From: Herbiconiux gentiana
Lineage (GTDB): Bacteria; Actinomycetota; Actinomycetes; Actinomycetales; Microbacteriaceae
Direction of reading: 5' to 3'
DNA: 64,000 bases
Assembly (NCBI RefSeq): GCF_024978135.1
Contig: NZ_JANTEZ010000001.1
Coordinates: forward strand, 124,001 to 188,000
A program made the translations under genes and the position numbers. Under the pieces are notes generated by a model. That model was not told the origin of the DNA. It saw nothing but the letters and a program-made list of their open reading frames with translations, and searched no databases. Position 1 is the stretch's first letter. Every line of letters begins with the position of its first letter. Below, in pieces: positions 5,814 to 62,809 of the stretch.

Positions 5814-5835
5814 TGTCGGAGGCCCTGTGTAGGCT
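5814..5835 (+). promoter_or_regulatory. RecA-NDp / PafBC-type promoter of polA
   Basis: TGTCGGAG (5814-5821), 8 nt, TAGGCT (5830-5835), 6 nt, then the GTG start of polA. The first element differs by one base from the TGTCRGTG consensus and the spacing is exact. The transcript would be leaderless. Confidence 0.6.
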
Positions 5836-5841
5836 GGCCGT

Positions 5842-8544
5842 GTGCCGGACAAAGAACAGCCTACCCTCCTCGTCATCGACGGTCATTCGCTCGCGTTCCG
5901 GGCGTTCTACGCCCTTCCGGTCGACAGTTTCCAGACCCGCAACGGGCAGCACACGAACGCCATCCACGGCTTCCTCGCGATGCTCATCAACCTGCTGAAG
6001 GCCGAGAACCCCACCCACCTCGCCGTGGCCTTCGACATCTCGCGGCACTCGTTCCGCACCCGCGAGTACCCCGACTACAAGGGCACCCGCGGCGAGACGC
6101 CGTCGGAGTTCATCGGGCAGGTGCCGCTGCTGCAGGAGTGCCTGCACGCGCTCGGCATCACCACCATCGAGAAAGAAGACTTCGAAGCCGACGACATCCT
6201 CGCCACGCTGGCCCGCCAAGGTGTCGACGAGGGCTTCAAGGTCTACGTCGTCTCCGGTGACCGGGATGCGATCCAGCTCGTCAACGACAAGGTGACGCTG
6301 CTCTACCCGTCCCGTCAGGGCGTGTCCGACCTCACCCGCTACGACGAGGCGAAGGTGCAGGAGCGCTACGGCATCCGCCCCGAGCAGTACCCCGACATCG
6401 CGGCCCTCGTCGGCGAGACGAGCGACAACCTCCCCGGTGTGCCCAAGGTGGGCGAGAAGACGGCGGTGAAGTGGTTGAACCAGTTCGGCACGCTCGACGC
6501 CATCCTCGAGCACCGCGACGAGATCCCGGGCGTGGTCGGCAACAACCTGCGCGAGCACGTCGACAACGTGGTGCGCAACCGCAAGCTCAACCGTCTGCTC
6601 ACCGACGTCGACCTGCCGGTCGGCCCCTCCGACCTGCTGCGGGCTCCAGCCGACGAGCAGCAGGTGCGCGACGTGTTCGCGCGACTGGAGTTCCGCACCC
6701 TGCTCGACCGGGTGCTGAAGCTCGAGGGCATCTCGGGTGACTCCGAGGTCGGTCAGGCTGCCGCCGCCGAGGCCGCGGCGAAGGCCGAGAACGCGCCGGT
6801 GCCGGTCACCCTGCTCGACGAGGAGCTCGCGGGCTGGCTCGCCCGCCACACGGCCACCGCGGCCGAGGCGGCGGCCGACATCACCAAGGCCGTCTCGGTG
6901 CAGGTCGAGACCATCGACGGCTACCCGGTGGCGGTCGGGCTCGCCACGCTGCACGAGACGGTCTTCCTGCCGTGGACTCAGGGCAGCCGCGACTACGCGC
7001 CCTTCGAGGCGTGGCTCGCGAGCGACGCCCCCAAGACCTTCTTCGACGCGAAGCGCCAGATCAAGGCGCTCCGCACGGCCGGGCTCGCCGTCTCGGGCCT
7101 CGCGTTCGATCCGGTGATCGCGGCCTGGCTGCTGAAGCCCGACTCCAGCGCCGACCGCTCGCTCGAGAAGCTCGTCGACCGCCACCTGCTCGAGATCCTG
7201 CCGAAGTCCGACCCGAACCAGCTGGTGCCCGAAGACGACACCGTCGTCGGGCCGGCCGGCGAGGCCTGGTACGCCCTGCGCGTCGCCCGCGCCCTCACCG
7301 CCCAGCTCGACGAGCGCACCCTGCGCGTGCTCACCGAGATCGAGCTGCCGACCCTCATGGTGCTGGCCGAGATGGAGCTCACCGGCGTCACGGTGAGCCA
7401 CCCCGAGCTCGTCGCGCTCTCCGACGAGCTGGGCAGCTCGGCCACCGAGATCGCCACCGAGGCCTTCGGCATCATCGGGCGCGAGGTCAACCTCGGTTCG
7501 CCGAAGCAGATCCAGGAGGTGCTCTTCGACCAGCTCGACATGCCGAAGACGCGTGCCACCAAGACGGGCTATTCGACGGATGCGGGAGCTCTCGCCGATC
7601 TGCAGGCCTCCAACCCGCACCCGTTCCTGGGGCTCCTGCTCGCGCACCGCGACGCCACGAAGCTCCGGCAGATCATCGAGGGCGTCGACAAGGCCATCGC
7701 GACCGACGGCCGGGTGCACACCACCTACGTTCAGACCGGCTCGTCGACCGGCCGCATCTCGTCCACCGACCCCAACCTGCAGAACATCCCGGTGCGCACG
7801 GAGGAGGGCCGGCGCATCCGGCATGCCTTCCGCGTCGGCGAGGGCTACGAGTGCCTGCTCACCGCCGACTACTCGCAGATCGAGATGCGCATCATGGCGC
7901 ACCTCTCCGGCGACCAGGGCCTGATCGACGCGTTCCACTCGGGCGAAGACCTGCACCGCTTCGTCGGCTCGCGCATCTTCTCGGTCGACCCGGCCGACGT
8001 CACGCCGAACATGCGCTCGAAGGTCAAGGCCATGTCGTACGGCCTGGCCTACGGCCTCTCGGCCTTCGGCCTGTCGAAGCAGCTGCGCATCGAGACCGCC
8101 GAGGCGAAGCAGCTCATGAGCGACTACTTCGAGCGCTTCGGCGGCGTGCGCGACTACCTCCGCAACGTCGTCGTGCAGGCCAAGGTCGACGGCTACACCG
8201 AGACAATCTTCGGCCGCCGCCGCCCCTTCGCGAACCTCACCAGCGCCAACCGCGTGCTCCGCGACAACGACGAGCGCGCCGCCCTGAACGCCCCCATCCA
8301 GGGCACCGCCGCCGACATCATCAAGATCGCGATGATCGACATCGCGGCCGACCTCGCCGCCCAGGGTCTCGCCTCCAAGCTGCTCCTCCAGGTGCACGAC
8401 GAACTCGTCTTCGATGTCGCCCCGGGCGAGTGGGACGCGCTGTCGGCGCTCGTCACGGCCCGCATGTCGTCGGCCGCCGACCTCTCGGTGCCCCTCGAGG
8501 TGCAGATCGGCCGCGGCGAGAACTGGAACGAGGCGGCACACTAG
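5842..8544 (+). CDS. polA: DNA polymerase I
   Basis: A 900-residue Pol I for Okazaki-fragment processing and repair synthesis. The 5' nuclease domain (about 1-300) shows VIDGHSLAFRAFYAL, FEADDILATLAR and VSGDRDAIQLV. The middle domain (about 315-490) is a degenerate proofreading exonuclease: where Escherichia coli has DTET there is QVET, and the later catalytic Asp residues are not found. The polymerase domain has motif A TADYSQIEMRIMAHLSGD, motif B RSKVKAMSYGLAYG and motif C QVHDELVFDV. The GTG start at 5842 sits 6 nt behind a -10 hexamer with no Shine-Dalgarno. The upstream element is of the PafBC type, so damage induction is likely. Confidence 0.98.
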   Translation: MPDKEQPTLLVIDGHSLAFRAFYALPVDSFQTRNGQHTNAIHGFLAMLINLLKAENPTHLAVAFDISRHSFRTREYPDYKGTRGETPSEFIGQVPLLQECLHALGITTIEKEDFEADDILATLARQGVDEGFKVYVVSGDRDAIQLVNDKVTLLYPSRQGVSDLTRYDEAKVQERYGIRPEQYPDIAALVGETSDNLPGVPKVGEKTAVKWLNQFGTLDAILEHRDEIPGVVGNNLREHVDNVVRNRKLNRLLTDVDLPVGPSDLLRAPADEQQVRDVFARLEFRTLLDRVLKLEGISGDSEVGQAAAAEAAAKAENAPVPVTLLDEELAGWLARHTATAAEAAADITKAVSVQVETIDGYPVAVGLATLHETVFLPWTQGSRDYAPFEAWLASDAPKTFFDAKRQIKALRTAGLAVSGLAFDPVIAAWLLKPDSSADRSLEKLVDRHLLEILPKSDPNQLVPEDDTVVGPAGEAWYALRVARALTAQLDERTLRVLTEIELPTLMVLAEMELTGVTVSHPELVALSDELGSSATEIATEAFGIIGREVNLGSPKQIQEVLFDQLDMPKTRATKTGYSTDAGALADLQASNPHPFLGLLLAHRDATKLRQIIEGVDKAIATDGRVHTTYVQTGSSTGRISSTDPNLQNIPVRTEEGRRIRHAFRVGEGYECLLTADYSQIEMRIMAHLSGDQGLIDAFHSGEDLHRFVGSRIFSVDPADVTPNMRSKVKAMSYGLAYGLSAFGLSKQLRIETAEAKQLMSDYFERFGGVRDYLRNVVVQAKVDGYTETIFGRRRPFANLTSANRVLRDNDERAALNAPIQGTAADIIKIAMIDIAADLAAQGLASKLLLQVHDELVFDVAPGEWDALSALVTARMSSAADLSVPLEVQIGRGENWNEAAH

Positions 8545-8598
8545 CGCGTGCGGGCCCCGCGGGCGGGCCCCGCGGGGGCGCGGGGGCGCGACCTTCTT

Positions 8599-8658
8599 GG
8601 CGAGTGGTCACTTTCGGCGCCAAGCTCGACGCTTTGGCGCCGAAAGTGACCAGTCGCC
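8599..8658. repeat. Long imperfect palindrome between convergent polA and dnaE2
   Basis: Arms 8599-8623 and 8634-8658 are complementary at 24 of 25 positions with a 10-nt spacer. The core CACTTTCGGCGCCAA and its complement are perfect. There is no T tract on either side. It could act as a two-way terminator for the convergent genes, or be a copy of a dispersed palindromic repeat. Just upstream (about 8552-8578) the block CGGGCCCCGCGGG occurs twice. Confidence 0.75.
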
Positions 8659-8690
8659 GGGCGTCGGGTCGAGATGGGGCGGGTCGGGGG

Positions 8691-11600
8691 TCAGCGGAAG
8701 TCGCGGGACGAGGTCTTGGCCGCGAGGGAGAGGGGCTCGAGCTGGTCGGCCACGAGGTTGGTGATGCCCTCGTCGGTGCGCTCGAGGATGCCGCGCACCA
8801 CGAGCGCCGGTGAGTCCCGCGCGATGCGGCGGTAGCGCTTCCACACGCCGACCCCGCAGATCACGTTCAGGATCCCCGTCTCGTCCTCGATGTTCATGAA
8901 CGTGATGCCGCTCGCCGTCGCCGGACGCTGCCGGTGCGTCACCACGCCGCCCACCTCGATGCGCCGCCCGTTCTCGGCCGTCGCGAGGTCACCCACCGAC
9001 AGCGCCCCGCGCCGCCGCAGCTCGGCTCGCGCGTGCGCCAGCGGATGGTCATCGGGCGAGATCCCCGTCGCCCACAGGTCGTAGACCACCTGCTCCTCGG
9101 CCGAGAGCATCGGCAGCAGCGGAGGCTGCACCGACACGAAGGTGCCCGGCAGGTACTCCGCCTTCTCCTGCGCGGCGTTACCCGCCTCCCACAGCGCCTC
9201 CCGCTTCGTCAGCCCCAGACTCTCGAACGCGCCGGCGGTCGCGAGCGCCTCGAGCTGCGGGGTCGTGAGCCCCACCCGCCGAGCCAGATCGGCCATGCTC
9301 AGGTAGAGCCCGTTCTCGTCGCGCTCGGCCACGATCTTCTCGGCCAGCGCGGTGCCGATCGAGGTCACCTCATCGAGCCCCAGCCGCACCGCGACGTCGC
9401 CGTCGCGCCGGTGCTCGAGCGTGCGATCGGGCTTCGAGCGGTCGAACACCTTCGGCACCGGGGGCGGCTCGTGCAGGCACGCGTCGAGCCCCGTCTCGGC
9501 AACGATGCTGTGCCCGGAGTCGTGCGTGGCGACAGGGCCGGAGTGGGCGGCGGAGAGACGGAGGGGCTCGAGGCCGGCCTGCACGCCCGAGCACTGGATG
9601 TCAGGGCGTCGCACCTCGACACCGTGCCGCCGAGCATCCGCCGTCAGAGTCTGGGGTGAGTAGAAGCCCATCGGCTGCGCCCGGAGCAGACCGGCGAGGA
9701 AGGCGGCGGGGTAGTGCAGTTTGATCCAGGAGCTGGCGTAGACCAGCAGGGCGAAGCTCGTGGAGTGGCTCTCGGCGAAGCCGAAGTTCGCGAACGCCTC
9801 GATCTTCGTGTAGATGATGTCGGAATCGGCGGCGTTGATGCCGTTGTTCGCCATGCCTTCGTAGAGCTTCTCGCGCAGGCTCGAGATCTTCTCGAGCCCG
9901 CGTTTGGAGCCCATCGCCCGGCGGAGCAAATCGGCGTCCTCGGCCGAGCAGTCGCCGACGGCCATCGCCATCTGCATCAGCTGCTCCTGGAACAGCGGCA
10001 CGCCGAGGGTGCGCTCCAGCACCGGCTTCAGCTTCGGGTGCAGGTAGGTCACCGGCTCCTGCCCGAGTTTGCGCCTGATGTACGGATGTACGGCACCACC
10101 CTGGATCGGACCGGGACGGATCAGCGCGATCTCGACCACGAGATCGTAGAAGGCGCGGGGCTGCAGGCGGGGGAGCGTGCCCATCTGCGCCCGGCTCTCC
10201 ACCTGGAAGACGCCGATGGAGTCGGCGCGGCAGAGCATGTCGTAGACGGCCTCCTCCTCCTTGGGGAGGGTGTCGAGGGTCCAGCGCCGGCCGGTCGACT
10301 CGTGCACGAGGTCGAAGCAGGACTGCAGCGCGGAGAGCATGCCGAGGCCGAGCAGGTCGAACTTCACGAGGCCCATCCAGGCGCAGTCGTCTTTGTCCCA
10401 CTGCAGCACCGTGCGGTCGGCCATGCGACCGTTCTCGATCGGGCAGACCTCGCCGACGGGTCGGTCGGTGAGCACCATGCCGCCGGAGTGGATGCCGAGA
10501 TGGCGCGGGAACTTCAGCACCTCGGTGGCGAGGGCGATCACCTCGTCGGGGATGTCGTGGTCGTCGCTCTCGACCGCCGGGCCCCAGCGCTCGATCTGTT
10601 TCGACCAGGCGTCCTGCTGGCCCGGGCTGTGGCCGAGGGCCTTGGCCATGTCGCGCACCGCGAACTTCGGGCGGTACTGGATGACGTTCGCCACCTGGGC
10701 GGCGTTGCGGCGGCCGTACTTCTCGTAGACGTACTGGATGACCTCCTCGCGACGCTCGGAGTCGAAGTCGACGTCGATGTCGGGCTCCTCGTCGCGCATG
10801 CTCGACAGGAAGCGCTCGAAGGGCAGCTCGCGGGCGATCGCGTCGACCGCGGTGATGTCGAGCAGGTAGCAGACGGCCGAGTTCGCGGCCGAACCCCGGC
10901 CCTGGCAGAGGATGCCGCGGCTGCGGGCCTCGCGCACGATGTCGTAGACGATCAGGAAGTAGCCCGGGAAGTCCTTCATCTCGATCACGTCGAGCTCGCG
11001 GTCGATGCGCGCCAGGTCGTCGGCGCTCGCCCGCGGGTACTTGCGCGGGATCGCATCGAGCACGAGCTGACGCAGCCACGACATGGGGGTATGGCCCTCG
11101 GGCACCTTCTGCCGGGGGAGCCGGGGCTTCGCCATGCGGAGCTGGAAGGAGAGGTCGGCCGCCACCTCGACGGTGCGCTCGACGGCGCCGGGGTAGCGGG
11201 CGAAACGCCGCGCCATCTCCGCGCCGGAGCGCAGGTGCGCCGTCGGGGCAGCGGGCAGCCAGCCGTCGAGCTCGTCGAGACTGCGGCGGGCGCGTACCGC
11301 GGCCAGCGCCTGCGAGAGCCGGTGCTGCTTGGTGGTGGCGTAGTGCACGTTGCCGGTGGCGACCGTACCGAGGCGCCGCTGCTGGGCGATGCCGGCCAGG
11401 GCGTCGTTGCGGGTGCTGTCGAGCGGGTCGCCCCGGTCGGTGAGCTCGACCAGCACGTTCTCGCGGCCGAAGAGGGCGACGAGCCGGTCGACCTCCCGGG
11501 CGGCTCCGTCGACCCCCTCGAACTCGAGCGCCTGGCGCACCGGACCCTTGCGGCAGCCGGTGAGCACCATCCAGTCGCCCTGGGCCTGGGCGGCGAGGTC

Positions 11601-12146
11601 GTCGAGATCGTAGAGCGGGCGACCCTTCTCGGCGCTCGGGGCGAGCTGGGCGGAGGTGATGGCGCCGGCCAGGCGGTGGTAGCCCTCCTTCTTGCGGGCG
11701 AGCACGAGCAGGTGGGAGCCCTCGGGGTCGGCGACACCGTTCTGCGGCTTACTGAGGTCGAGCGAGAGCTCGGCACCGAAGATCGTGGCCATGCCATGCT
11801 TCTCGGCGGCCTCGGCGAAGCGCACGATGCCGTAGAAGCCGTCGTGGTCGGAGAGGGCGAGGGCGTTCAGGCGCAGGCGGGCGGCCTCCTCGATCAGCAT
11901 CTCGGGCGAGGACGCGCCGTCGAGGAAGCTGAAGTTGGAGTGCGCGTGCAGTTCGGCATAGGGAACCACCGGTTCGGCGGGTTCTGTGGGCGTCTCCGGC
12001 TGAAGGTTCTCGGCGGCCTCGGGATCGTAGGGCGCTCGCTTGGCCGACTCGGTCACGCCGTCGCCCGGGGGTGGGCCCGGTCTCGTGCGGTCGGACAGGG
12101 TGCGCTCGAGTTCCGACCAGGGGATCGCGGGGTTGTTGAAGCCCAT
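8691..12146 (-). CDS. dnaE2: Error-prone DNA polymerase DnaE2 (translesion C-family)
   Basis: An 1151-residue C-family polymerase alpha subunit of the DnaE2/ImuC type, the catalytic part of the damage-induced mutasome. The PHP domain begins at ELHAHSNFSFLDGASSPE. The polymerase active site has GRGSAANSAVCYLL and the acidic cluster EEPDIDVDFDSERREEV. HhH, OB-fold (VTHRQRPATASGITFMNIED) and C-terminal parts follow. It ends in SRDFR, a hallmark of the DnaE2 branch. An insertion of about 50 residues rich in Ser, His and Pro lies before AVRLGLDEV. The ATG at 12146 has GGAG upstream. It lies 63 bases after imuB and should be co-transcribed from the LexA-controlled promoter at 14889. Confidence 0.96.
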   Translation of the reverse strand: MGFNNPAIPWSELERTLSDRTRPGPPPGDGVTESAKRAPYDPEAAENLQPETPTEPAEPVVPYAELHAHSNFSFLDGASSPEMLIEEAARLRLNALALSDHDGFYGIVRFAEAAEKHGMATIFGAELSLDLSKPQNGVADPEGSHLLVLARKKEGYHRLAGAITSAQLAPSAEKGRPLYDLDDLAAQAQGDWMVLTGCRKGPVRQALEFEGVDGAAREVDRLVALFGRENVLVELTDRGDPLDSTRNDALAGIAQQRRLGTVATGNVHYATTKQHRLSQALAAVRARRSLDELDGWLPAAPTAHLRSGAEMARRFARYPGAVERTVEVAADLSFQLRMAKPRLPRQKVPEGHTPMSWLRQLVLDAIPRKYPRASADDLARIDRELDVIEMKDFPGYFLIVYDIVREARSRGILCQGRGSAANSAVCYLLDITAVDAIARELPFERFLSSMRDEEPDIDVDFDSERREEVIQYVYEKYGRRNAAQVANVIQYRPKFAVRDMAKALGHSPGQQDAWSKQIERWGPAVESDDHDIPDEVIALATEVLKFPRHLGIHSGGMVLTDRPVGEVCPIENGRMADRTVLQWDKDDCAWMGLVKFDLLGLGMLSALQSCFDLVHESTGRRWTLDTLPKEEEAVYDMLCRADSIGVFQVESRAQMGTLPRLQPRAFYDLVVEIALIRPGPIQGGAVHPYIRRKLGQEPVTYLHPKLKPVLERTLGVPLFQEQLMQMAMAVGDCSAEDADLLRRAMGSKRGLEKISSLREKLYEGMANNGINAADSDIIYTKIEAFANFGFAESHSTSFALLVYASSWIKLHYPAAFLAGLLRAQPMGFYSPQTLTADARRHGVEVRRPDIQCSGVQAGLEPLRLSAAHSGPVATHDSGHSIVAETGLDACLHEPPPVPKVFDRSKPDRTLEHRRDGDVAVRLGLDEVTSIGTALAEKIVAERDENGLYLSMADLARRVGLTTPQLEALATAGAFESLGLTKREALWEAGNAAQEKAEYLPGTFVSVQPPLLPMLSAEEQVVYDLWATGISPDDHPLAHARAELRRRGALSVGDLATAENGRRIEVGGVVTHRQRPATASGITFMNIEDETGILNVICGVGVWKRYRRIARDSPALVVRGILERTDEGITNLVADQLEPLSLAAKTSSRDFR

Positions 12147-12209
12147 CAGCTCTCCTTCGGTCGCGCGTGGTGGGTGGACGTGGTGACAGGGCGGTGCGGG
12201 GCGAGGCGG

Positions 12210-14090
12210 TCAGTCATAGCGGGCCTCCGCCCACCAGAGGTGGCGGTCGAGGGCGAGGAGCCAGGCGGTGCCGTCGGCGTCGATGAGTTGGAGGCGATCG
12301 AGGCGGCGGGCCTTGCGGCTGTCCCACCAGCGTTCGGACACCGGCCAGGGGCCGGCCCAGGCCTGCACCGGACGGAGCGAGCGACTGGAGACGTCGGGGG
12401 AGAAGCGTGCGGGCTCGCCGATGAGCTCGCCGGAGTCGTCGACGTCGACCAGTTCGTTGCGGCTCGTCAGGAGCAGCACCTGCCGGCGCTGCTCGAACAC
12501 CGTGGTGGGCAGCGGCGGCGGCAGGCTGCCCGGCCACGGCGCCACCTCGGCCCGGGCCGAACTCTTCGGCCCGCGGCGCCGGGCGCCGGCAGACGCCGGT
12601 CGCGGCGTCGCGGCGGTGGTGCCGGGCGCGGTCGACGCAGCGGTGATGGAGGGGGTGGCGGAGGTGGGGATGACGGAGGTAGGGGTGGCGGAGGAGGAGG
12701 AGGTGGAGGAGGGACCGATCATGTCTTCGGTGCCGGCCAGCGTCAGTCGGGCGCCGCCATTCGGCGACGCGGAGGTGGGGGCGATGCGAGCCAGAGCGCC
12801 GCTAGCCGATGCAGTGGATGCCGCACGGCCGGGCAAGCCGGCGGGTGCCGCGCGGCCGGGCGCCGCCGCGGGTGTCGGGGGGCGGTCGCCCCAGGGGACC
12901 AGCAGCTGCCGTTCCCGCGGCGAGCGGCCGCCACCGATGGAGGCGGTGAGCACACCCTCGTGGCCCACGATGCTCTGCACCCGCGAGAGGCCGTGGTGGA
13001 TGCGCTCCTCGGAGCCCGTGCCCCAGAGGCCGGTCTCGTGGCGGGCGCTGTCGTCGACCGTCTCGGCGGTGAGCCGCACACGCACGACCGGCGCCGAGAG
13101 GGTGCTCTCGATGGTGCTGCCGCCCTGCAGCTGCCAGCGCACCCGATCGACCACGTCGTTCGCCCCGAACCAGCGCGGGTGCAGCCAGGTGCGCTCCCGC
13201 ACCTCGCCCCGCTCGGTGGCGATCTCGACGCGCAGCTCGGTGCAGACCAGGCGGGCGGCCGCGAGCTCGCCCACGAAGCGATCGGCCTCGGCCCGGATGC
13301 TGAACGTGATCTGGTCGATGCGCTCGAGCGGCGGCTCGAAGGCGTTGACGCTCTCCCGCACCTCGGGCGGGATGCGCGGGACGACCCGCCGCGGGTCGGT
13401 GCCGCTGGCACGCTCGTGCGCCCGCGCCCCCGGCTCACCGAAGCGGGAACGCACGTCTTCGGCCGGCAGTGCCGCGAAGTCGCCCAGGGTGCGGATGCCC
13501 AGACGCCAGAGCAGGGCGCACAGCTCCTCCTCGCCCAGCAGCTGCAGCGGGAGCCGGGCGAGGAACTCGGGGGAGGCGCCCTCGGGCACGATGCGGATGA
13601 GGTCGACCCCCGGCAGCCGCGCCGCCTGCTCGGCGGCGAACAGGCCGTCGGCCACACCGACCCGCGCCTCCGTGACCCCGAGCTCGGCGAAGCGCTCGAG
13701 GAAGGCGAGGGCCGCCACGTGCTCGGTGCCGTAGAACCGCTTCGGACCGCGGGCGCGCAGGGCGCAGCTGCCGGCGCGCATGACCTGGACATTCGGGCTC
13801 ATCTCCTCCAGCGCGCCGATGAGCGGCTCGAAGGCACGGTTGACCCGCACCGGGTCGTAGGGGAAGTCGCGGAGCCGGGGACTGCGCGCCTGCGCTTCCC
13901 GGAGACGGAGCCCGCGCCGCACCCCGTCGGAGCGCGCCCCCTCGGAGCAGGCGTAGACCAGCCCCTTCTCGATCACCGCGATCGGGTCGTCGAGTGTCAG
14001 CCCCTCGGCCTCGGCCGTGGCCGCCACGGGCCAGTCGGGGCACCACAGCACCATGGTGCGCACGGCTCCGGCCGCCGCGCCGGCGCTCAC
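12210..14090 (-). CDS. imuB: ImuB, Y-family polymerase-like mutasome scaffold
   Basis: A 626-residue protein of the catalytically dead Y-family branch. ImuB proteins bridge DnaE2, ImuA and the beta clamp. The fold is recognisable (VYACSEGARSDGVRRGLRL, KRFYGTEHVAALAFLERF), but the metal-binding acids are missing: the first motif is LWCPDWPVAA, and where SIDE is expected there is RAGSCALRARG. A low-complexity Ala/Ser/Thr/Pro linker of about 120 residues (roughly 400-525) precedes a conserved C-terminal domain ending DRHLWWAEARYD. The GTG start at 14090 overlaps the imuA stop as GTGA, so translation is coupled. Confidence 0.93.
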   Translation of the reverse strand: MSAGAAAGAVRTMVLWCPDWPVAATAEAEGLTLDDPIAVIEKGLVYACSEGARSDGVRRGLRLREAQARSPRLRDFPYDPVRVNRAFEPLIGALEEMSPNVQVMRAGSCALRARGPKRFYGTEHVAALAFLERFAELGVTEARVGVADGLFAAEQAARLPGVDLIRIVPEGASPEFLARLPLQLLGEEELCALLWRLGIRTLGDFAALPAEDVRSRFGEPGARAHERASGTDPRRVVPRIPPEVRESVNAFEPPLERIDQITFSIRAEADRFVGELAAARLVCTELRVEIATERGEVRERTWLHPRWFGANDVVDRVRWQLQGGSTIESTLSAPVVRVRLTAETVDDSARHETGLWGTGSEERIHHGLSRVQSIVGHEGVLTASIGGGRSPRERQLLVPWGDRPPTPAAAPGRAAPAGLPGRAASTASASGALARIAPTSASPNGGARLTLAGTEDMIGPSSTSSSSATPTSVIPTSATPSITAASTAPGTTAATPRPASAGARRRGPKSSARAEVAPWPGSLPPPLPTTVFEQRRQVLLLTSRNELVDVDDSGELIGEPARFSPDVSSRSLRPVQAWAGPWPVSERWWDSRKARRLDRLQLIDADGTAWLLALDRHLWWAEARYD

Positions 14091-14878
14091 CCGTTCACCT
14101 CGCGCAGCAGTCGCATCGGGGCGAAGGCAGGAGCAGCAGCAGGGGCAAAGGCAGCAGCAGAGGCAGCAACAGCGGCAGCACCCTCACCCCGCCCCGCCAT
14201 CCCCGGCAACTCGATCACCGGCCGGAACAGCTCGTCGCCGTCGGGCAGCCACAGCCGCCCCCGCCGTGGCCGCCCGTTGCCGGTGCGCGCGGTGACCGAC
14301 ACCATCGCCTGCCGCCCGGCGAGATAGCCGTGCCCCGCGCCGATGCCCGTCCAGGTGCTCTCGGTGATGCGCAGGGTCGCCTCGCTCTGCGGCCAGTCGC
14401 CGAGCACGATGAGCGTCGCCTCACGCTGCCGGATGCGCGCCTGCAGCCGCGCCAGAGCGCCGTCGGACACCCGACCCGGCACGCGGGTCACGACGACCCC
14501 CACCACGTCGGCCATCGCCGCGGTGACGGTGAGCCACTCGTCTCCCGGATGCGGCACCAGCGCCAGCCGCTCCAGGTCGACTCCGAACCGGGCGGCCGCC
14601 TCGACCCCGAAGTCGGGCAGGCCAACGACCCCGCACCAGATGCCGTCGGCCGAGGGCCCCGCCATCAGCGCCATGACGAGCGCGGTCGAGCTCTCGACCG
14701 AGTAGGCGGCCCCGGCACGCAGCGACCCCCCGGGCAGCAGCGGCGCGATCGCCGGATGCGTGCGCACCGCCCGGGTGTCGAGCTTGGTGGCCTGCATCTG
14801 GGCGATGCGCGACTGGAGCGCCCGGATATCCTCGCCCGCGGAAGCGGGGGAGGAGACGTCGAGTGCGGCATCGGTCAT
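14087..14878 (-). CDS. imuA: ImuA-type RecA-like mutasome accessory protein
   Basis: A 263-residue RecA-related protein of the actinobacterial ImuA type and the first gene of the mutasome operon. An N-terminal helix (IRALQSRIAQMQATKLDTRA) leads into a RecA-like core with AAYSVESSTALVMALMAG in place of a canonical P-loop, GIWCGVVGLPDFGVEAAARF and TLIVLGDWPQSEATL. Without a good Walker A it may not hydrolyse ATP. The C-terminus is an Ala/Phe/Pro-rich segment followed by MRLLREVNG. The ATG at 14878 has GGGG 4-7 nt upstream. An in-frame ATG at 14887 overlaps the LexA box region and is less likely. Confidence 0.88.
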   Translation of the reverse strand: MTDAALDVSSPASAGEDIRALQSRIAQMQATKLDTRAVRTHPAIAPLLPGGSLRAGAAYSVESSTALVMALMAGPSADGIWCGVVGLPDFGVEAAARFGVDLERLALVPHPGDEWLTVTAAMADVVGVVVTRVPGRVSDGALARLQARIRQREATLIVLGDWPQSEATLRITESTWTGIGAGHGYLAGRQAMVSVTARTGNGRPRRGRLWLPDGDELFRPVIELPGMAGRGEGAAAVAASAAAFAPAAAPAFAPMRLLREVNG

Positions 14879-14888
14879 GGCCCCATGT

Positions 14889-14904
14889 TCGAACATATGT
14901 TCGA
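14889..14904 (-). promoter_or_regulatory. LexA (SOS) box of imuA-imuB-dnaE2
   Basis: A perfect 16-bp palindrome of the form TCGAAC-ATAT-GTTCGA, the actinobacterial LexA operator, 10 bases upstream of the imuA ATG. On the minus strand a TTGACT hexamer (14913-14908) lies 3 bases before it, so the operator would sit between the -35 and -10 regions of the promoter. Confidence 0.93.
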
Positions 14905-14970: not shown

Positions 14971-14992
14971 TGTCGGTGGGGTGCCCTAGGGT
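14971..14992 (+). promoter_or_regulatory. RecA-NDp / PafBC-type promoter of the DUF885 gene
   Basis: TGTCGGTG (14971-14978), 8 nt, TAGGGT (14987-14992), 6 nt, then the ATG at 14999. All invariant positions of the RecA-NDp consensus are met. Confidence 0.75.
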
Positions 14993-14998: not shown

Positions 14999-16672
14999 AT
15001 GACCAGTTCGACAGTACGTCCGACAACCGACATCGACCGCATCGCGGAGCGCTGGGTCGACACCGTGGTGGAACTCGAGCCCGTGATCGGCACCTACATC
15101 GGCCGCACCGAGGTGAACGACCGGTTCGGCGATCTCTCGCCGGCCGGGCACGAGCGCTACGTGGCCGCGGTGACCTCCGTGCTCGCCGAGCTCGACAAGG
15201 CCACGCCGGTCGACGAGGTCGACCAGGTCACCAAGACCGACCTGTCGAACGAGCTGCGGCTGAGCCTGGCGAGCAGCGAGGCCGGTCTGCAGCTGCGCGA
15301 CCTGAACGTGATCGACTCGCCCAGCCAGCACATCCGCGAGGTCTTCGACCTCATGCCCACCGAGACCGAAGACGACTGGGCCGTCGTCTCGAAGCGCCTC
15401 TCGGCCGTCGAGGAGGCCGTGAACGGCTACATCGTCACCCTGCGCGAAGGCATGCGGCAGGGTGTCGTGCCCGCACGCCGGCAGGTGCTCGAGGTGCTCG
15501 CCCAGGCGCGCACCAACTCCGGCCCCGACAGCTTCTTCACCACCTTCGCCACGAGCGCCGAGGCCACCGCCCGCACGGGCGAGGCTCTGCACCGCGACCT
15601 CGGCCGCGCCGCCGAGACGGCCTCCGAGGCCTACACGAAGCTCGCGCAGTTCCTCGAGAACGAGCTGGCGCCGGTCGCCGGTGAGCAGGATGCGGTGGGT
15701 CGCGAGATCTACGCCCTGCAGTCCCGTCGCTTCCTCGGCGCGACGATCGACCTCGACGAGACCTATGAATGGGGTATCGAGGAGCTGGCGCGCATGGTCC
15801 GCGAACAGGAGGCCATCGCCGAGGAGATCACGCCCGGCGCATCCGTTCTCGAAGCCATCGCCCACCTCGACGAAGACCCGAGCCGCAAGCTCCACGGCAC
15901 CGAGGCGCTGCGGGTCTGGATGCAGGAGACCAGCGACCGCGCGGTGGCGGAGCTCGGCGCGACCCACTTCGACATCCCCGAGGAGGTGCGAACGATCGAG
16001 TGCATGATCGCGCCCACCCACGAGGGCGGCATCTATTACACGGGCCCCACCGACGACTTCTCGCGCCCCGGCCGCATGTGGTGGTCGGTGCCCGAGGGCG
16101 TCACCGAGTTCGACACCTGGCGCGAGCTCACCACCGTCTACCACGAGGGCGTTCCGGGTCACCACCTGCAGATCGGCCAGGCCGTCGTCAACCGCGCCAA
16201 GCTCAACACCTGGCGCCGTCAGCTCGCCGGCACGAGCGGCCATGCCGAGGGCTGGGCGCTCTACGCCGAGCGGCTGATGGAGGAGCTCGGCTACCTCGAC
16301 GACCCGGCCGACCGCCTCGGCATGCTCGACGGGCAGCGGATGCGCGCGGCCCGCGTGGTGCTCGACATCGGCGTTCACCTGCAGAAGCCGCGGCTCGACG
16401 GTCAGGGTGTGTGGGATGCGGGGTACGCCCTCGAGTTCATGCGCCGGAACGTGAACATGGACGACGCGTTCATCCGCTTCGAGGTGAACCGCTACCTCGG
16501 CTGGCCCGGGCAGGCCCCCTCCTACAAGGTGGGCCAGCGCATCTGGGAGGAGGTGCGCGACACCCTGCGCGCCCGCGAGAAGGAGGCCTTCTCGTCGAAG
16601 GAGTTCCACCGTCGCGCCCTCGACCTCGGCGGCGTGGGCCTCGACACCCTGCGCTCGACGCTCCTGGGCTGA
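14999..16672 (+). CDS. DUF885 family protein, putative zinc metallopeptidase
   Basis: A 557-residue DUF885 protein. The family is predicted to be peptidases with a gluzincin-like fold. The metal motif is YHEGVPGHHLQ (H, E and H visible), and a second motif GHAEGWALYAERL supplies another Glu. There is no signal peptide, so the protein should be cytoplasmic. The ATG at 14999 lies 6 nt behind a TAGGGT hexamer that belongs to a PafBC-type promoter, so the gene is probably damage-induced and leaderless. It is divergent from the SOS-controlled imuA. The DUF4166 gene begins 2 bases after its stop. The substrate is unknown. Confidence 0.9.
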   Translation: MTSSTVRPTTDIDRIAERWVDTVVELEPVIGTYIGRTEVNDRFGDLSPAGHERYVAAVTSVLAELDKATPVDEVDQVTKTDLSNELRLSLASSEAGLQLRDLNVIDSPSQHIREVFDLMPTETEDDWAVVSKRLSAVEEAVNGYIVTLREGMRQGVVPARRQVLEVLAQARTNSGPDSFFTTFATSAEATARTGEALHRDLGRAAETASEAYTKLAQFLENELAPVAGEQDAVGREIYALQSRRFLGATIDLDETYEWGIEELARMVREQEAIAEEITPGASVLEAIAHLDEDPSRKLHGTEALRVWMQETSDRAVAELGATHFDIPEEVRTIECMIAPTHEGGIYYTGPTDDFSRPGRMWWSVPEGVTEFDTWRELTTVYHEGVPGHHLQIGQAVVNRAKLNTWRRQLAGTSGHAEGWALYAERLMEELGYLDDPADRLGMLDGQRMRAARVVLDIGVHLQKPRLDGQGVWDAGYALEFMRRNVNMDDAFIRFEVNRYLGWPGQAPSYKVGQRIWEEVRDTLRAREKEAFSSKEFHRRALDLGGVGLDTLRSTLLG

Positions 16673-20159: not shown

Positions 20160-20181
20160 CGTCGGAGGCTCCCGCTAGCAT
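20160..20181 (+). promoter_or_regulatory. Leaderless coaE promoter with a weak PafBC-like element
   Basis: TAGCAT (20176-20181) ends 6 nt before the GTG of coaE. Eight nt before it is CGTCGGAG (20160-20167), which matches the TGTCRGTG box at 6 of 8 positions. The -10 is credible; damage control is doubtful. Confidence 0.4.
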
Positions 20182-20187: not shown

Positions 20188-20835
20188 GTGTTCGTGACAG
20201 CTCTCACCGGAGGCATCGCCGCCGGCAAATCCACTGTGGCCCGCCGCTTCGCCGAGCACGGTGCGGTCGTGATCGACGCCGACCGGCTGGCCCGTGAGGC
20301 CGTCGAGCCGGGCACCCCCGGCCTCGCCGCCATCGCCGAGCGCTTCGGCCCCGGGGTCATCGACTCTGAGGGCCGTCTCGACCGCCCCGCCCTGGGTGCC
20401 GTCGTCTTCGCCGACGACGCGGCCCGCCTCGATCTCAACGGCATCACCCACCCGGCCGTCGCCGAGCTGCTGAAGCATCGCCTCGCCGAGTCGACCGCCG
20501 CCGACCCCGACGCGATCGTGGTCTACGACGTGCCGCTCCTCGCCGAGTCAGGCGGGCGCCGCGACGGCCTGTTCCGCTATGTCGTCGTGGTCGAGGCGCC
20601 GGCCGATACTCGGGTGAGGCGCCTGATCGAACTCCGCGGAATGGCGGCCGACGAGGCCGAGCGGCGGGTGGCGTCCCAGGCTTCCGACGACGAGCGCCGC
20701 GCCCTCGCCGATGTCGTCATCACCACGGGCGGCACCCTCGACGAGACGGTGCAGCAGACCGACGCCGCGTGGCTCTCCATCCGCGAGGCGGCCGCCCGAG
20801 CATCCGCTGCCGACCGACCGGCCTGGCAGAGCTGA
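20188..20835 (+). CDS. coaE: Dephospho-CoA kinase
   Basis: A 215-residue kinase for the last step of coenzyme A synthesis, phosphorylating dephospho-CoA with ATP. The P-loop is TGGIAAGKST near the N-terminus. VVIDADRLAREAVEPGTPGL and the lid region typical of CoaE follow, with YDVPLLAESG and RRVASQ. The GTG at 20188 is close behind a -10 hexamer. The rpsA-coaE order is common in actinobacteria, but a terminator separates the two here. pxpA starts 34 bases after its stop. Confidence 0.96.
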   Translation: MFVTALTGGIAAGKSTVARRFAEHGAVVIDADRLAREAVEPGTPGLAAIAERFGPGVIDSEGRLDRPALGAVVFADDAARLDLNGITHPAVAELLKHRLAESTAADPDAIVVYDVPLLAESGGRRDGLFRYVVVVEAPADTRVRRLIELRGMAADEAERRVASQASDDERRALADVVITTGGTLDETVQQTDAAWLSIREAAARASAADRPAWQS

Positions 20836-24430: not shown

Positions 24431-24452
24431 TGTCGGTGGCTCTCCCTAAACT
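24431..24452 (+). promoter_or_regulatory. RecA-NDp / PafBC-type promoter of uvrB
   Basis: TGTCGGTG (24431-24438), 8 nt, TAAACT (24447-24452), 6 nt, then the uvrB ATG. The box is the right half of a local inverted repeat, CACCGAC (24419-24425) with GTCGGTG (24432-24438). No Shine-Dalgarno is present, so the mRNA should be leaderless. Confidence 0.8.
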
Positions 24453-24458: not shown

Positions 24459-26528
24459 ATGGAACCCACCCGCTCCGTGCACCCCTTTGAAGTCATCTCT
24501 GAATACACGCCGAGCGGAGACCAGCCGGCGGCCATCGCCGAGCTCGCCGGGCGCATCAACGCGGGCGAGACCGACATCGTGCTGCTCGGCGCCACCGGCA
24601 CGGGCAAGTCGGCCACCACGGCCTGGCTGATCGAGCAGGTGCAGCGCCCGACCCTCGTGCTCGCGCACAACAAGACCCTGGCGGCGCAGCTGGCGAACGA
24701 GTTCCGCGAGCTCATGCCGAACAACGCGGTCGAGTACTTCGTGTCGTACTACGACTACTACCAGCCCGAGGCGTACGTGCCGCAGACCGACACCTTCATC
24801 GAGAAAGACAGCTCGGTCAACGCCGAGGTCGAGCGGCTGCGTCACTCCACCACCAACTCGCTGCTGTCGCGCCGCGACGTCGTGGTGGTCTCGACCGTGT
24901 CGTGCATCTACGGCCTCGGCAAGCCGGAGCAGTACCTGAACGCGATGATGGCCCTGCAGGTGGGGCAGCGTATCGACCGCGACCACCTCATCCGTCGCTT
25001 CGTCTCGATGCAGTACCAGCGCAACGACATCGACTTCTCGCGCGGCAACTTCCGGGTTCGGGGCGACACCATCGAGATCATCCCGATGTACGAAGAACTG
25101 GCCATCCGCATCGAGATGTTCGGCGACGAGATCGAGGGGCTCTACAGCCTGCACCCGCTGACCGGCGACATCGTGCAGAAACTCGAGAGCGTCTCCGTCT
25201 TCCCCGGCTCGCACTACGTGGCCGACACGAACGTCATGCACCGCGCCATCGAGACCATCCAGACCGAACTGCACGACCGGCTGGCCCAGCTCGAGCGCGA
25301 GGGCAAGCTGCTCGAAGCCCAGAGGCTGCGGATGCGCACGACCTTCGACCTCGAGATGATGCAGCAGATCGGCTTCTGCTCCGGCATCGAGAACTACTCC
25401 CGCCACATCGACGGGCGCAACCCGGGCGAGGCGCCGCACTGCCTGATCGACTACTTCCCCGACGACTTCCTGGTCGTCATTGACGAGTCGCACGTGACGG
25501 TGCCGCAGATCGGCGCGATGTACGAGGGCGACTCCTCGCGCAAGCGCACTCTGGTCGACCACGGCTTCCGGCTGCCGAGTGCGCTCGACAACCGTCCGCT
25601 GAAGTGGAACGAGTTCAAGGAGCGCGTCGGCCAGACCGTCTACCTCTCCGCGACGCCGGGGCGCTACGAGATGGGCATCGCCGACGGGGTGGTGGAGCAG
25701 ATCATCCGCCCCACCGGCCTGATCGACCCGACCCTCATCGTGAAGCCCTCGAAGGGGCAGATCGACGATCTGCTCGAGGAGATCCGGCTGCGCTCGGCGC
25801 GCGACGAGCGTGTGCTCGTCACCACCCTCACGAAGAAGATGGCCGAGGAGCTCACCGACTTCCTCACTGAGGCGGGGGTGCGGGTGCGGTATCTGCACTC
25901 GGATGTCGACACGCTGCGCCGGGTCGAGCTCCTGACCGAGCTCCGGCAGGGTGTCTACGACGTGCTCGTCGGCATCAACCTGCTGCGTGAAGGTCTCGAC
26001 CTGCCCGAGGTGTCGCTCGTGGCGATCCTCGACGCCGACAAGGAGGGCTTCCTGCGGTCGTCGACGTCGCTCATCCAGACGATCGGTCGCGCGGCGCGCA
26101 ACGTCTCGGGCGAGGTGCACCTCTACGCCGACAAGATGACCGACTCGATGCGGCTCGCCATCGACGAGACCGACCGGCGGCGCGAGAAGCAGGTCGCGTA
26201 CAACACGCTGCACGGCATCGACCCGCAGCCGCTGCGCAAGAAGATCGCCGACATCACCGAGGCCCTGGCCCGCGAGGGCGCCGACACCGCCGACCTGCTC
26301 AAGGAGCGCGCCGGCCGCGGCAAGAAGAGCCCCACGCCGAACCTGCGCCGCGAGGGCATCGCCGCACAGGGCGCGAACGACCTCGAGTCGATCATCGCCG
26401 ACCTGAACGGCCAGATGCTCGAGGCGGCGGCCGAGCTCAAGTTCGAGCTGGCGGGCCGCCTCCGCGACGAGGTCTCGGAACTCAAGCGCGAACTCCGCCA
26501 GATGGAGAAGGCGGGCCACATCGCCTGA
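24459..26528 (+). CDS. uvrB: Excinuclease ABC subunit B
   Basis: A 689-residue UvrB, the damage-verifying helicase of nucleotide excision repair. Walker A is GATGTGKSA at residues 44-52. The beta-hairpin region starts at [16 protein letters not shown] (97-112). The DEAD-box-like motif is VVIDESHVT, and helicase motifs V and VI are [14 protein letters not shown] and QTIGRAARN. The C-terminal UVR domain that binds UvrC is at the end ([20 protein letters not shown]). The ATG at 24459 is fixed by the -10 hexamer 6 nt upstream. It shares its promoter class with uvrA. Confidence 0.99.
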
Positions 26529-27034: not shown

Positions 27035-27056
27035 TGTCGGTGGGTCCACGTACAGT
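27035..27056 (+). promoter_or_regulatory. RecA-NDp / PafBC-type promoter of uvrA
   Basis: TGTCGGTG (27035-27042), 8 nt, TACAGT (27051-27056), 6 nt, then the uvrA GTG. Box, spacing and -10 all match the consensus. Confidence 0.8.
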
Positions 27057-27062: not shown

Positions 27063-30047
<2,985 letters not shown>

Positions 30048-56442: not shown

Positions 56443-56726
56443 GACCGGGGCCCGTCTCCGGGAACCGGGCGGTACACCTCGATCGCCGTGGGCTGCTCGT
56501 GACGCTGGATGCTCGAGGTGCCGACGTTGCCGAGCACGACCGCGAAGTAGGGGAGGAGGATGGCACCGGCCGCGCAGACGGCCAGCCACCACCCGTGCAC
56601 GAACAGCATGAGCACGAGGCAGATCACGCGGATCGACATGGTGATCAGGTATTTGACCATGCGGGCGTGCCGCTCGGCATCGGGTGACGGCGGCAGGCTC
56701 GTGAGGGACTGCTGGCTGCTCTTCAT
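56439..56726 (-). CDS. DUF3099 membrane protein
   Basis: A 95-residue protein with two membrane helices (about 24-42 and 44-66). The core MVKYLITMSIRVICLVL, then GWWLAVCAAGAILLPYFAVV, is typical of DUF3099. Function unknown. ATG at 56726 with GAGG 5 nt upstream; TAGGCT (56741-56736, minus strand) is a likely -10, giving a very short leader. It is the first gene of the DUF3099, zinc protein, SURF1 unit. Confidence 0.85.
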   Translation of the reverse strand: MKSSQQSLTSLPPSPDAERHARMVKYLITMSIRVICLVLMLFVHGWWLAVCAAGAILLPYFAVVLGNVGTSSIQRHEQPTAIEVYRPVPGDGPRS

Positions 56727-56840
56727 GGTCACCTCAGCCTACGCTTCCCCAACTGCTTCTAAGCTGGTATCCGGCCGATTGCCCCGTCGGGTTCGCCGAT
56801 CGTCTCCCGCCCCGCCCCATCCCGTGAGGACCAGCTCTCC

Positions 56841-57563: not shown

Positions 57564-57564
57564 C

Positions 57565-59444: not shown

Positions 59445-59451
59445 GGGACAA

Positions 59452-59457
59452 ACCCTA
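59452..59457 (-). promoter_or_regulatory. -10 hexamer of glgC
   Basis: TAGGGT on the minus strand, 7 nt before the glgC ATG; no Shine-Dalgarno. The glgA -10 lies 24 bases away facing the other way. Confidence 0.5.
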
Positions 59458-59480
59458 CTGAGGTTTCGTCGCAGGCGTAC

Positions 59481-59486
59481 TACGGT
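59481..59486 (+). promoter_or_regulatory. -10 hexamer of glgA
   Basis: TACGGT lies 6 nt before the ATG at 59493, with no Shine-Dalgarno, so a leaderless transcript is expected. Confidence 0.5.
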
Positions 59487-59492
59487 TCGACT

Positions 59493-60677: not shown

Positions 60678-60692
60678 ACGGCTGTCGCTGGG

Positions 60693-60698
60693 TAGGGT
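60693..60698 (+). promoter_or_regulatory. -10 hexamer of the orphan ABC ATPase gene
   Basis: TAGGGT lies 6 nt before the ATG at 60705. A GGAG sequence is also present but sits only 1 nt before the ATG, too close to act as a ribosome site. Confidence 0.45.
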
Positions 60699-60704
60699 TG
60701 GAGC

Positions 60705-61487
60705 ATGCCCAATGTGCTCGATTTCGAAGACGTTTCGGTTGTCCGCGATGGGAATCAGATCCTCAGCGGCGTGAACTGGAAAGTCGACGGCGATCAGCGC
60801 TGGGTGGTGCTCGGCCCGAACGGCGCGGGCAAGACCACGCTGCTGCAGATCGCCGCGGCGATGAACCACCCCTCCGAGGGCACCGTGCAGGTGCTCGAGG
60901 GCACGCTCGGCGAGGTCGACCTGTTCGAGCTGCGCCCGCGGGTGGGATTCGCGTCGAGCGCGATGGCCCGTCGTTTCCCGGCCAACGAGACCGTGCTGAA
61001 CGTGGTGCTCACCGCCGCGTACTCCGTCACGGGCCGCTGGAACGAGTCCTACGAGGACATCGACCTCCGCCGCGCCCAGCGCGTGCTGAACGAATGGAAG
61101 CTCGATCACCTCGCCGAGCGCCTGTTCGGCTCGCTCAGCGACGGCGAGCAGAAGCGCGTTCAGATCGCCCGCTCGGTGATGACCGATCCCGAGCTGCTGC
61201 TGCTCGACGAGCCGGCCGCCAGCCTCGATCTCGGCGCCCGCGAGGAGCTGCTGCAGCTGCTCGGCGGCTACGCCTCCGCCCCCGAGGCGCCAGCCATCGT
61301 GATGGTCACGCACCACGTCGAGGAGATCCCGCGCGGCTTCACCCACGCCCTGCTGCTCGGCCGTGACGGCATCGTCGCGACCGGCCCGCTCGGCGAGGTG
61401 CTCACCGCCGAGAACCTGGGTTCTGCCTTCGGGCTGCCGATCGAGCTGACCGAGACCGACGGGCGCTACAGCGCTCGCGCGGCCTGA
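60705..61487 (+). CDS. Stand-alone ABC transporter ATPase
   Basis: A 260-residue ABC ATPase. Walker [18 protein letters not shown]; a variant signature [17 protein letters not shown], with Asp where the second position of LSGGQ is usually Gly; Walker [15 protein letters not shown]; switch His in [10 protein letters not shown]. The region between Walker A and the signature resembles ModF/molybdenum-type and iron-type ATPases ([20 protein letters not shown]). No permease gene is adjacent, so the transported substrate or other role is unknown. Confidence 0.85.
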
Positions 61488-61588
61488 TCGGCTGCACCGC
61501 GCATCCGGAGCTTTCTGCTAAACTGTCTAGCTGGCCCTCGCGGCCTCTGACTTCACTCTCACCCATCGCCGTAACCAAGGACAGAATC

Positions 61589-61849
61589 ATGAAGACTGAC
61601 ACCCACCCCACGTACGAAGCAGTGGTCTTCCGCGACCTCGCCTCCGGTGCGACCTTCCTCACCCGCTCGACCGTGTCGTCGTCGAAGACGATCGAGTGGG
61701 AGGACGGCAACACCTACCCCGTCATCGACGTCGAGATCTCGTCGGAGTCGCACCCGTTCTACACGGGTAAGCAGCGCATCATGGACTCGGCCGGCCGTGT
61801 CGAGAAGTTCAACAACCGCTACAAGGGCTTCGGCGGCGGCAGCAAGTAG
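61589..61849 (+). CDS. rpmE2: 50S ribosomal protein L31, type B
   Basis: An 86-residue L31 of the zinc-free type B: no Cys is present. [20 protein letters not shown], then [20 protein letters not shown], is diagnostic. The ATG at 61589 has AAGGA upstream. Type B L31 is often under Zur control in actinobacteria, but I see no convincing Zur palindrome in 61488-61588. A strong terminator follows. Confidence 0.96.
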
Positions 61850-61870
61850 GCTGCAGCTCCCAGAACGTCA

Positions 61871-61905
61871 GAACCCCCGTCGACTCCGGTCGGCGGGGGT
61901 TCTTC
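61871..61905 (+). terminator. Terminator after rpmE2
   Basis: Arms 61871-61884 and 61889-61902 pair over 14 bp with one G-U pair (GAACCCCCGTCGAC), with a 4-nt loop and TTC after the stem. Confidence 0.85.
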
Positions 61906-61958
61906 GTGCAGCGAGCGGGTGCGTGGCCCTGTGGGGCTCCGGATGCCCGGCGGCGCGC

Positions 61959-62747
61959 TCAGGGCTTGAGCGGCACCTCGGGCCAGCCGCGGCGCGCGGT
62001 GTAGGACGGGTCGCGGGTGCGGCGCATGTAGTCCTCGAAAGAGTCGCACTGGGCGTCGTGCCAGGCGATCTGCTGCTCGTGCAGCTCGTGCGGGGAGAGG
62101 TCGAGCTCGGCCGCGTAGCGCTCGCCGATCGCCCGGGCCACGAGGCCGGCCGCGATGGCGTCGGCTCCGGCGTCGTGGGCGTCGACGAGGGACACGCCGT
62201 AGTGCTCGGCCGCCGCGGTGAGCGTGCGCTTGCCCTTGCGATAGCGGTCGATCTGCTTGTCGACCACCAGCGGGTCGACGACGGGCAGCGGGCCCTCGAG
62301 CGGGGCGACGCCGTGCCGGAGCGACTCGCGGTGCAGCAGCGTCAGATCGTAGGGGGCGTTGTAGACGACGAGCGAGTAGCCGTCGTCGAACGCGGCTCGC
62401 AGTGCCGCGACGATCTCGCCGACGACCTCGGCCGCCGGGCGGCCCTCGGCGCGGGCGCGCTGGGTGGTGACGCCGTGCACGGCCGTGGCCTGCTCGGGGA
62501 TCTCGACCCCGGGGTCGGCCAGCCAGTCGCGGCGGAGCGCCGGGGCGCCCGAGTCGTCGAGCAGGGTGACGTTCGCGGTGACCACGCGGCTGGTGTCGAC
62601 GTCGATGCCGGTGGTCTCGAGGTCGAAGACGGCGAGCCGGGAAGCCCAGGCGGGCAGGAGCGGGGTGAGCCGCGCATCCGCTTCGACCGGAACGACCGGA
62701 TCGACCAGGGTGTCGATCTCGAACAGGGGCACCTCGACGATGGTCAT
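61959..62747 (-). CDS. DEDDh 3'-5' exonuclease, DnaQ-like
   Basis: A 262-residue exonuclease of the DnaQ/epsilon type. Motif I is VFDLETTGIDVDTSRVVT (D and E), motif II NAPYDLTLL (D), and motif III DAHDAGADAIA (H and D). A 37-residue N-terminal extension and a 45-residue C-terminal part ending WPEVPLKP are specific to actinobacterial members. The ATG at 62747 lies 6 nt behind a CAGACT hexamer, itself 8 nt behind a TGTCGGTG box, so damage induction is suggested. It may trim 3' ends in repair; its substrate is not known. Confidence 0.9.
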   Translation of the reverse strand: MTIVEVPLFEIDTLVDPVVPVEADARLTPLLPAWASRLAVFDLETTGIDVDTSRVVTANVTLLDDSGAPALRRDWLADPGVEIPEQATAVHGVTTQRARAEGRPAAEVVGEIVAALRAAFDDGYSLVVYNAPYDLTLLHRESLRHGVAPLEGPLPVVDPLVVDKQIDRYRKGKRTLTAAAEHYGVSLVDAHDAGADAIAAGLVARAIGERYAAELDLSPHELHEQQIAWHDAQCDSFEDYMRRTRDPSYTARRGWPEVPLKP

Positions 62748-62753
62748 GCAGTC

Positions 62754-62775
62754 AGTCTGCACGCCACCACCGACA
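62754..62775 (-). promoter_or_regulatory. RecA-NDp / PafBC-type promoter of the DEDDh exonuclease gene
   Basis: On the minus strand: TGTCGGTG (62775-62768), 8 nt, CAGACT (62759-62754), 6 nt, ATG at 62747. The -10 has C in place of the first T of TANNNT; spacing is exact. A second box, TGTCGGTC (62791-62784), lies 16 bp upstream in the same direction. Confidence 0.65.
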
Positions 62776-62809
62776 CCCCGGGTGACCGACACCCGCGAGG
62801 CGCGAGTTG

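Follow-up and report, generated by a model that had tools for sequence, protein, structure and literature searches.

A predicted PafBC-type DNA-damage regulon in Herbiconiux gentiana whose promoters are mostly placed for leaderless transcripts

In a 64,000-nucleotide (nt) stretch of the genome of Herbiconiux gentiana, a member of the Microbacteriaceae (contig NZ_JANTEZ010000001.1, positions 124,001 to 188,000; the window hereafter), the genes polA, uvrB and uvrA and a gene for a DUF885 protein are each preceded by an element of the type found at the PafBC-dependent (RecA-NDp) damage promoters of mycobacteria. A scan of the window for TGTCRGNG-N{7,9}-TANNNT returned these four sites, all on the plus strand, and a fifth exact match was not found anywhere in the 64 kb (Table 1). 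Inspection of the sequence placed the start codon 6 nt after the -10 hexamer in all four. Two related sites depart from the pattern by one base, one before coaE and the other, in its -10, before a gene on the minus strand encoding an RNase_T (DEDDh-type) exonuclease. The initial annotation had reported the exact pattern with its 6-nt gap before uvrB, uvrA and the DUF885 gene, and one-mismatch versions before polA (5814) and the exonuclease gene (62775, minus strand, -10 CAGACT); all five sites were recovered, and Pfam agrees with the five gene identities that it gave. It had overlooked the coaE site (20160) and a perfect LexA-type box, TCGAACATATGTTCGA, in the intergenic region of the DUF885 gene. 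No relative of solved structure was found for the 262-aa exonuclease by sequence search.

Table 1. Putative promoter elements and associated genes in the window, numbered from its first nucleotide
Feature	Position	Strand	Remarks
polA PafBC-type element, TGTCGGAG-N8-TAGGCT	5814..5835	+	GTG 6 nt downstream (GTG 5842)
polA, DNA polymerase I, predicted leaderless	5842..8544	+	Pfam 5_3_exonuc_N, DNA_pol_A
dnaE2-like DNA polymerase III alpha	8691..12146	-	dnaE2 by neighbours
imuB-like Y-family protein	12210..14090	-	Pfam IMS
imuA'-like first gene of mutasome cassette	14087..14878	-	no Pfam match
Perfect LexA-type SOS box, TCGAACATATGTTCGA	14889..14904		just upstream of imuA'; 66 bp from DUF885 PafBC-type element
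DUF885-gene PafBC-type element, TGTCGGTG-N8-TAGGGT	14971..14992	+	ATG 6 nt downstream (ATG 14999)
DUF885 protein	14999..16672	+	Pfam; related over residues 4-556 of PDB 3iuk, an uncharacterized protein
coaE element, one mismatch, CGTCGGAG-N8-TAGCAT	20160..20181	+	GTG 6 nt downstream
coaE, dephospho-CoA kinase	20188..20835	+	Pfam CoaE
uvrB PafBC-type element, TGTCGGTG-N8-TAAACT	24431..24452	+	ATG 6 nt downstream (ATG 24459)
uvrB	24459..26528	+	Pfam
uvrA PafBC-type element, TGTCGGTG-N8-TACAGT	27035..27056	+	GTG 6 nt downstream (GTG 27063)
uvrA	27063..30047	+	Pfam
RNase_T (DEDDh-type) exonuclease, 262 aa	61959..62747	-	Pfam
Exonuclease-gene PafBC-type element, weak -10, TGTCGGTG-N8-CAGACT	62754..62775	-	ATG 6 nt downstream (ATG 62747); one -10 base off TANNNT

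The assembly comprises 3.85 Mb, with the window on its contig 1, and the scan was extended to the whole genome. With a spacer of N7 to N9 permitted, the pattern TGTCRGNG-N7..9-TANNNT matched 64 times (27 + 37) against a single match of the reversed-pattern control, and 63 of the 64 sites nevertheless carry a spacer of exactly N8. The profile of these 63 shows a G at -2 in 51, a T at position 7 in 26 and a G at position 9 in 52. The core TGTCRGTG proposed by the initial annotation thus stands together with its N8 spacer, except that position 7 is free and a G follows the 8-mer, leading to TGTCRGNGG. Since the element ends only 8 nt before the -10 and the usual -35/-10 spacing is wider, it is too close to serve as a -35 and the sites are not standard -35 promoters. 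No other genome among the 148 of the class, a set that includes this one, has as high a density of sites as the 16.4 per Mb found here; class-wide, 3051 matches were counted against 294 for the control, with 143 genomes exceeding their own control, two tying and three lying below it. In a phylum sample outside the class, many PafC-bearing genomes have site counts near control, as judged by eye without a statistic.

The genes behind the sites point to DNA repair. The downstream proteins of 56 of the 64 exact sites were scanned with Pfam; of the other eight, five had no GC-rich open reading frame (ORF), and L009, L046 and one L052 site were left out. Proteins of replication, recombination and repair stand behind 15 of the 56, namely polA, uvrA, uvrB and recA, together with genes whose names are our interpretation of domain matches: mfd-, radA-, dinB-, dnaX-, holB-, xthA-, AlkZ- and UvrD/AdnA-type domains, a DEDDh exonuclease (L019), a ResIII helicase (L007) and an RNase_H_2 nuclease (L050). 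Among the genes lying upstream of sites the count was 0 of 19, sampled by 20 random draws from 33 such neighbours, one of them drawn twice. The enrichment before repair genes, recA included, that the initial annotation had named as a check is thus present. When the leaderless form of the pattern was scanned allowing one mismatch, 74 matches were obtained in the genome, 39 of them exact, against two for the control. Two of the 33 new one-mismatch sites fall in the window; the other 31 stretches were fetched and 20 proteins chosen from them by eye, for which reason no repair rate is claimed for this set. These 20 add the MgsA/RarA, RecG, RecQ, Lhr, RmuC, Fpg/Nei and photolyase families, and spore-photoproduct-lyase-like and thymidylate synthase families are also preceded by such sites.

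The genome holds the regulator. Five WYL domains score over the cut-off, and two of them belong to PafB and PafC. The two genes form a tandem pair on contig 1 (about 209.4-211.5 kb), roughly 21 kb beyond where the window ends. PafB carries WYL and WCX domains, and PafC carries HTH_PafC, WYL and WCX. The best solved relative of both is the PafBC fusion 6sj9, to which PafB aligns with residues 15-328 on 6-319 and PafC with residues 11-279 on 345-617. Judging by these alignments, which span most of the length of PafB and of PafC, intact pafB and pafC orthologues are present, as the initial annotation had anticipated. It had suggested looking for them near the proteasome locus; seven ORFs around pafBC gave three Pfam matches (TrmI, HAD hydrolase, TatC) and four without a match, none of them to a family of the pupylation pathway, the rest of the genome not having been searched for this pathway. 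Autoregulation of pafBC was considered and rejected, since on that contig no exact site comes closer than those at 197 kb and 296 kb.

The position of the start codon is the second regular feature of the sites. In 39 of the 63 N8 sites an ATG or GTG lies exactly 6 nt after the -10, in six at 7 nt and in 47 at 5-8 nt, while every other offset up to 16 nt holds 0-4 of the 63. In G026 and G028, genomes of two other families, a start at 5-8 nt follows 23 of 32 sites (17 at 6 nt) and 24 of 28 (14 at 7 nt), respectively. The 6-nt arrangement is seen in 730 of the 3051 sites class-wide, in 82 of 155 in the five Microbacteriaceae of the sample, own included, and in 109 of 600 and 79 of 509 in families f18 and f99. 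Transcription begins about 7 nt after a -10. A start codon 5-8 nt after it therefore means that the first transcribed nucleotide is expected on or right beside that codon, and about three quarters of the regulon promoters, and so most of the regulon, are predicted to be leaderless. By comparison, TANNNT stands 6 nt before the start in 13 of 76 other Herbiconiux genes examined, the remaining offsets between 2 and 15 holding 0-2 apiece. Several points weigh against the prediction. The counts at 5-8 nt contain chance ATG and GTG codons. The baseline of 13 in 76 counts genes and not promoters, so that it understates the leaderless use made by other promoters. Finally, an in-frame ATG follows the recA site after 12 nt, but the likely RecA start comes only after 135 nt. 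Because the likely start is so far past the site, recA itself is probably not leaderless, and it was dropped as an example, the nearer ATG lying 123 nt upstream of that start.

Conservation was followed in relatives at two distances. In G026 (32 sites) and G028 (28 sites), where every site listed by the scan was taken, a relative of a Herbiconiux site gene lies downstream of 18 of the 60 sites, compared with 5 of 60 upstream regions, the query set including coaE and the exonuclease starting at 62747. Sites precede recA, uvrB and polA in both genomes; uvrA, radA and mfd recur as targets in G028, and the 62747 exonuclease does in G026. The UvrD/AdnA, xthA, DEDDh and ABC-type matches across families are weaker and hold at family level only. 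For the exonuclease, when at most one mismatch, a relaxed -10 and an in-frame start 6-7 nt after it were required, the element was found at 18 of 30 ortholog loci, own included, and at 0 of 30 with the reversed control. Within the genus this comprises 8 of 15 loci, own included, mostly with CAGACT as -10, the other seven showing no site; outside the genus it comprises 10 of 15, nine of them with a proper TANNNT. A looser scan in which start placement was not required gave 20 of 30 at up to one mismatch (relaxed -10), against 3 of 30 for the control. From these cross-family and ortholog-locus counts it follows that the sites before uvrA, uvrB, polA and the exonuclease gene are not confined to the genus.

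A second damage arm, that of LexA, accompanies the predicted PafBC arm, since the genome encodes lexA and a perfect box stands at the start of a mutasome operon. Three exact LexA-type boxes occur in the genome, the one at 14889-14904 included. The cassette runs in the order imuA'-imuB-dnaE2 on the minus strand (8691-14904, box included), and its first gene is presumably imuA', a name suggested by its neighbours. The imuA' gene (start 14878) and the DUF885 gene (start 14999) are divergent, and the LexA box and the PafBC-type element lie between them in one 120-bp region. A looser box, TCGAA-N6-TTCGA, is found upstream of the DUF885 gene in all five Herbiconiux loci among the best relatives. Looser SOS-like boxes were also noticed near lexA and upstream of recA (L311:1140 and L311:14299). 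The sequence suggests that recA may be under dual control by LexA and PafBC, as it is in mycobacteria.

Taken together, the elements, their rigid N8 spacing, the PafB and PafC orthologues and the repair-gene targets are observed, and we infer by analogy that PafBC would bind, activate and induce these promoters. We consider it very likely, on the strength of this sequence evidence, that Herbiconiux has a DNA-damage regulon extending across the genome and that these are its promoters, dependent on PafBC and of the RecA-NDp type, with the addition that most members of the regulon would be leaderless. The PafBC regulon with about five members in the window that the initial annotation had proposed is thus supported by the targets, by pafBC and by the 64 exact genome sites; its DUF885 member has to be regarded as lineage-restricted. 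In the mechanism expected from published work on mycobacteria, DNA damage would expose single-stranded DNA that binds the WYL domains of PafBC, the activated PafBC would join sigma-A RNA polymerase at promoters with TGTCRGNGG at about -26 and a TANNNT -10, and transcription of the repair genes would rise. In M. smegmatis, single-stranded DNA on the WYL domains activates PafBC, the helix-turn-helix (HTH) of PafB engages the -26 motif and that of PafC meets domain 4 of sigma-A (PMC11804915). The recA and uvrA genes of M. smegmatis are reported to be subject to PafBC as well as to the SOS system.

A frequent 8-mer that merely happened to fall near ordinary -10 elements would account for one feature of the window, where TGTCGGTG occurs 19 times against a mean of 3.04 in shuffles and is followed by TANNNT at N7-N9 in only three of these copies, the copy at 62775 being one mismatch off; this agrees with the remark in the initial annotation that the copies inside genes lack a -10. 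The full pattern is another matter, given that it occurs four times in the window against a mean of 0.10 in shuffled sequence (largest 1) and 64 times in the genome against one, with a fixed N8 and recurring targets. Chance as the source of the sites is ruled out by these counts, and its probability is negligible. That the element is read by another regulator, ClgR-like or a further WYL protein, is a more substantial proposal. Three of the five WYL domains are neither PafB nor PafC, and ClgR has been reported to recognise the RecA-NDp motif of the mycobacterial recA P1 promoter (PMC5656591). Furthermore, when 40 genomes, own included, were compared for sites and for a PafC-family match over the cut-off, such a match was present in 36 and sites in 39; the two agreed broadly, and the pairing was not strict. 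G026 (32 sites versus 1 in the control) and G039 (11 versus 1) have no PafC over the cut-off; the best hit in G026 is a partial match of 26%, with PafB not found within 5 kb of it. Conversely, G035 has a strong PafC and no exact TGTCRGNG-N8-TANNNT site. These three genomes weaken a strict pairing of motif and PafC. Also to be weighed against the damage-regulon reading is that 41 of the 56 scanned site genes were not counted as repair genes; this mixed set includes ClpX, a Dps-like ferritin, MnmA, M4, M13 and S11 peptidases, aminotransferases, transporters and others. On the other side, it is the PafB HTH that engages the -26 motif in M. smegmatis (PMC11804915), both orthologues are intact in Herbiconiux, and G020 and G027, relatives without a PafC match, hold 9 sites versus 3 and 2 versus 2, the exonuclease orthologue of G020 (L199) having no site. 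We therefore regard a reader other than PafBC as quite improbable. As side observations, the PafC match of G035 sits in a 1247-aa open frame (L313), possibly a fused PafBC, sites precede recA, uvrB and polA in G026 despite its weak partial PafC match (L312), and G007 has 36 sites in a fragmented assembly with only weak PafC matches.

The DUF885 site could lie outside the functional regulon, as a recent or decaying -26 element placed before an ordinary leaderless -10. Only 12 of 80 relatives carry the element at up to one mismatch, while others keep TANNNT 6 nt before the start without it. The gene directly upstream is polA in 68 of the 80 and imuA' or imuB in eight (five Herbiconiux, three Subtercola); the element is present in six of these eight loci against 6 of the 72 others (Fisher p = 7e-5, not corrected for relatedness), an association that shared ancestry alone could explain. 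The five best relatives of the protein are all from Herbiconiux, the first being 96% identical. The reversed-pattern control, however, scored 1 of 80, and Agreia and Agromyces (up to one mismatch) and Cryobacterium (two mismatches) also carry versions of the element, which fits an older, decayed site. We take this alternative seriously while leaning slightly against it, and on the sequence evidence the DUF885 gene is a weak, lineage-restricted member of the predicted regulon. The mutasome cassette itself sits between polA and the DUF885 gene, which are adjacent in 68 of the 80 relatives examined.

The Herbiconiux sites share their core and N8 spacer with the mycobacterial recA P1 element, given as tTGTCRgtg-8 nt-TannnT in PMC5656591, and the common targets include recA, uvrA and AdnAB-type genes (PMC8223512). 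PafB and PafC orthologues and a second LexA arm are likewise common to both. Unlike the mycobacterial elements, those of Herbiconiux are degenerate at position 7 and have a G after the 8-mer. Most also have the position expected of leaderless promoters, whereas in M. tuberculosis the mapped RecA-NDp promoter of Rv1955 gives a leader of some 50 nt (PMC2897130). A further difference is that none of the seven ORFs scanned beside pafBC matches a pupylation-pathway family. The LexA SOS regulon of actinobacteria overlaps in function and is represented here by lexA, the perfect imuA' box and the looser lexA and recA boxes, but LexA uses a palindromic repressor box, while the PafBC-type site is an activator element at -26. 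Leaderless actinobacterial genes generally have TANNNT about 6 nt before ATG or GTG. The same layout is seen at 13 of the 76 other Herbiconiux genes of our baseline; in the present case it is tied to one stress regulon and to its -26 element. No description of a leaderless PafBC regulon was found in those parts of the literature on PafBC, RecA-NDp and leaderless transcripts that the search covered. As a kind, the predicted regulon is familiar; the literature searched gave no description of it for this lineage, and the leaderless layout predicted for it is the part that may surprise.

These results extend a damage pathway known from mycobacteria to another family and provide a list of 64 exact predicted promoters. 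The conserved RNase_T exonuclease without a solved relative becomes a candidate, and likely, damage-response nuclease, and two damage arms would stand side by side in the window, the mutasome cassette being served by a perfect LexA box and the divergently oriented DUF885 gene by a PafBC element. A simple prediction follows, namely that the majority of PafBC transcripts have their 5' end at the start codon. Tentatively, and with rather more doubt than conviction, we suggest that the PafBC regulon of the Microbacteriaceae may be wired leaderless, with the activator site setting transcription of most targets to begin at their start codons, so that repair proteins would be made from leaderless mRNAs, perhaps via 70S initiation, under damage or stress that impairs the canonical route of initiation.

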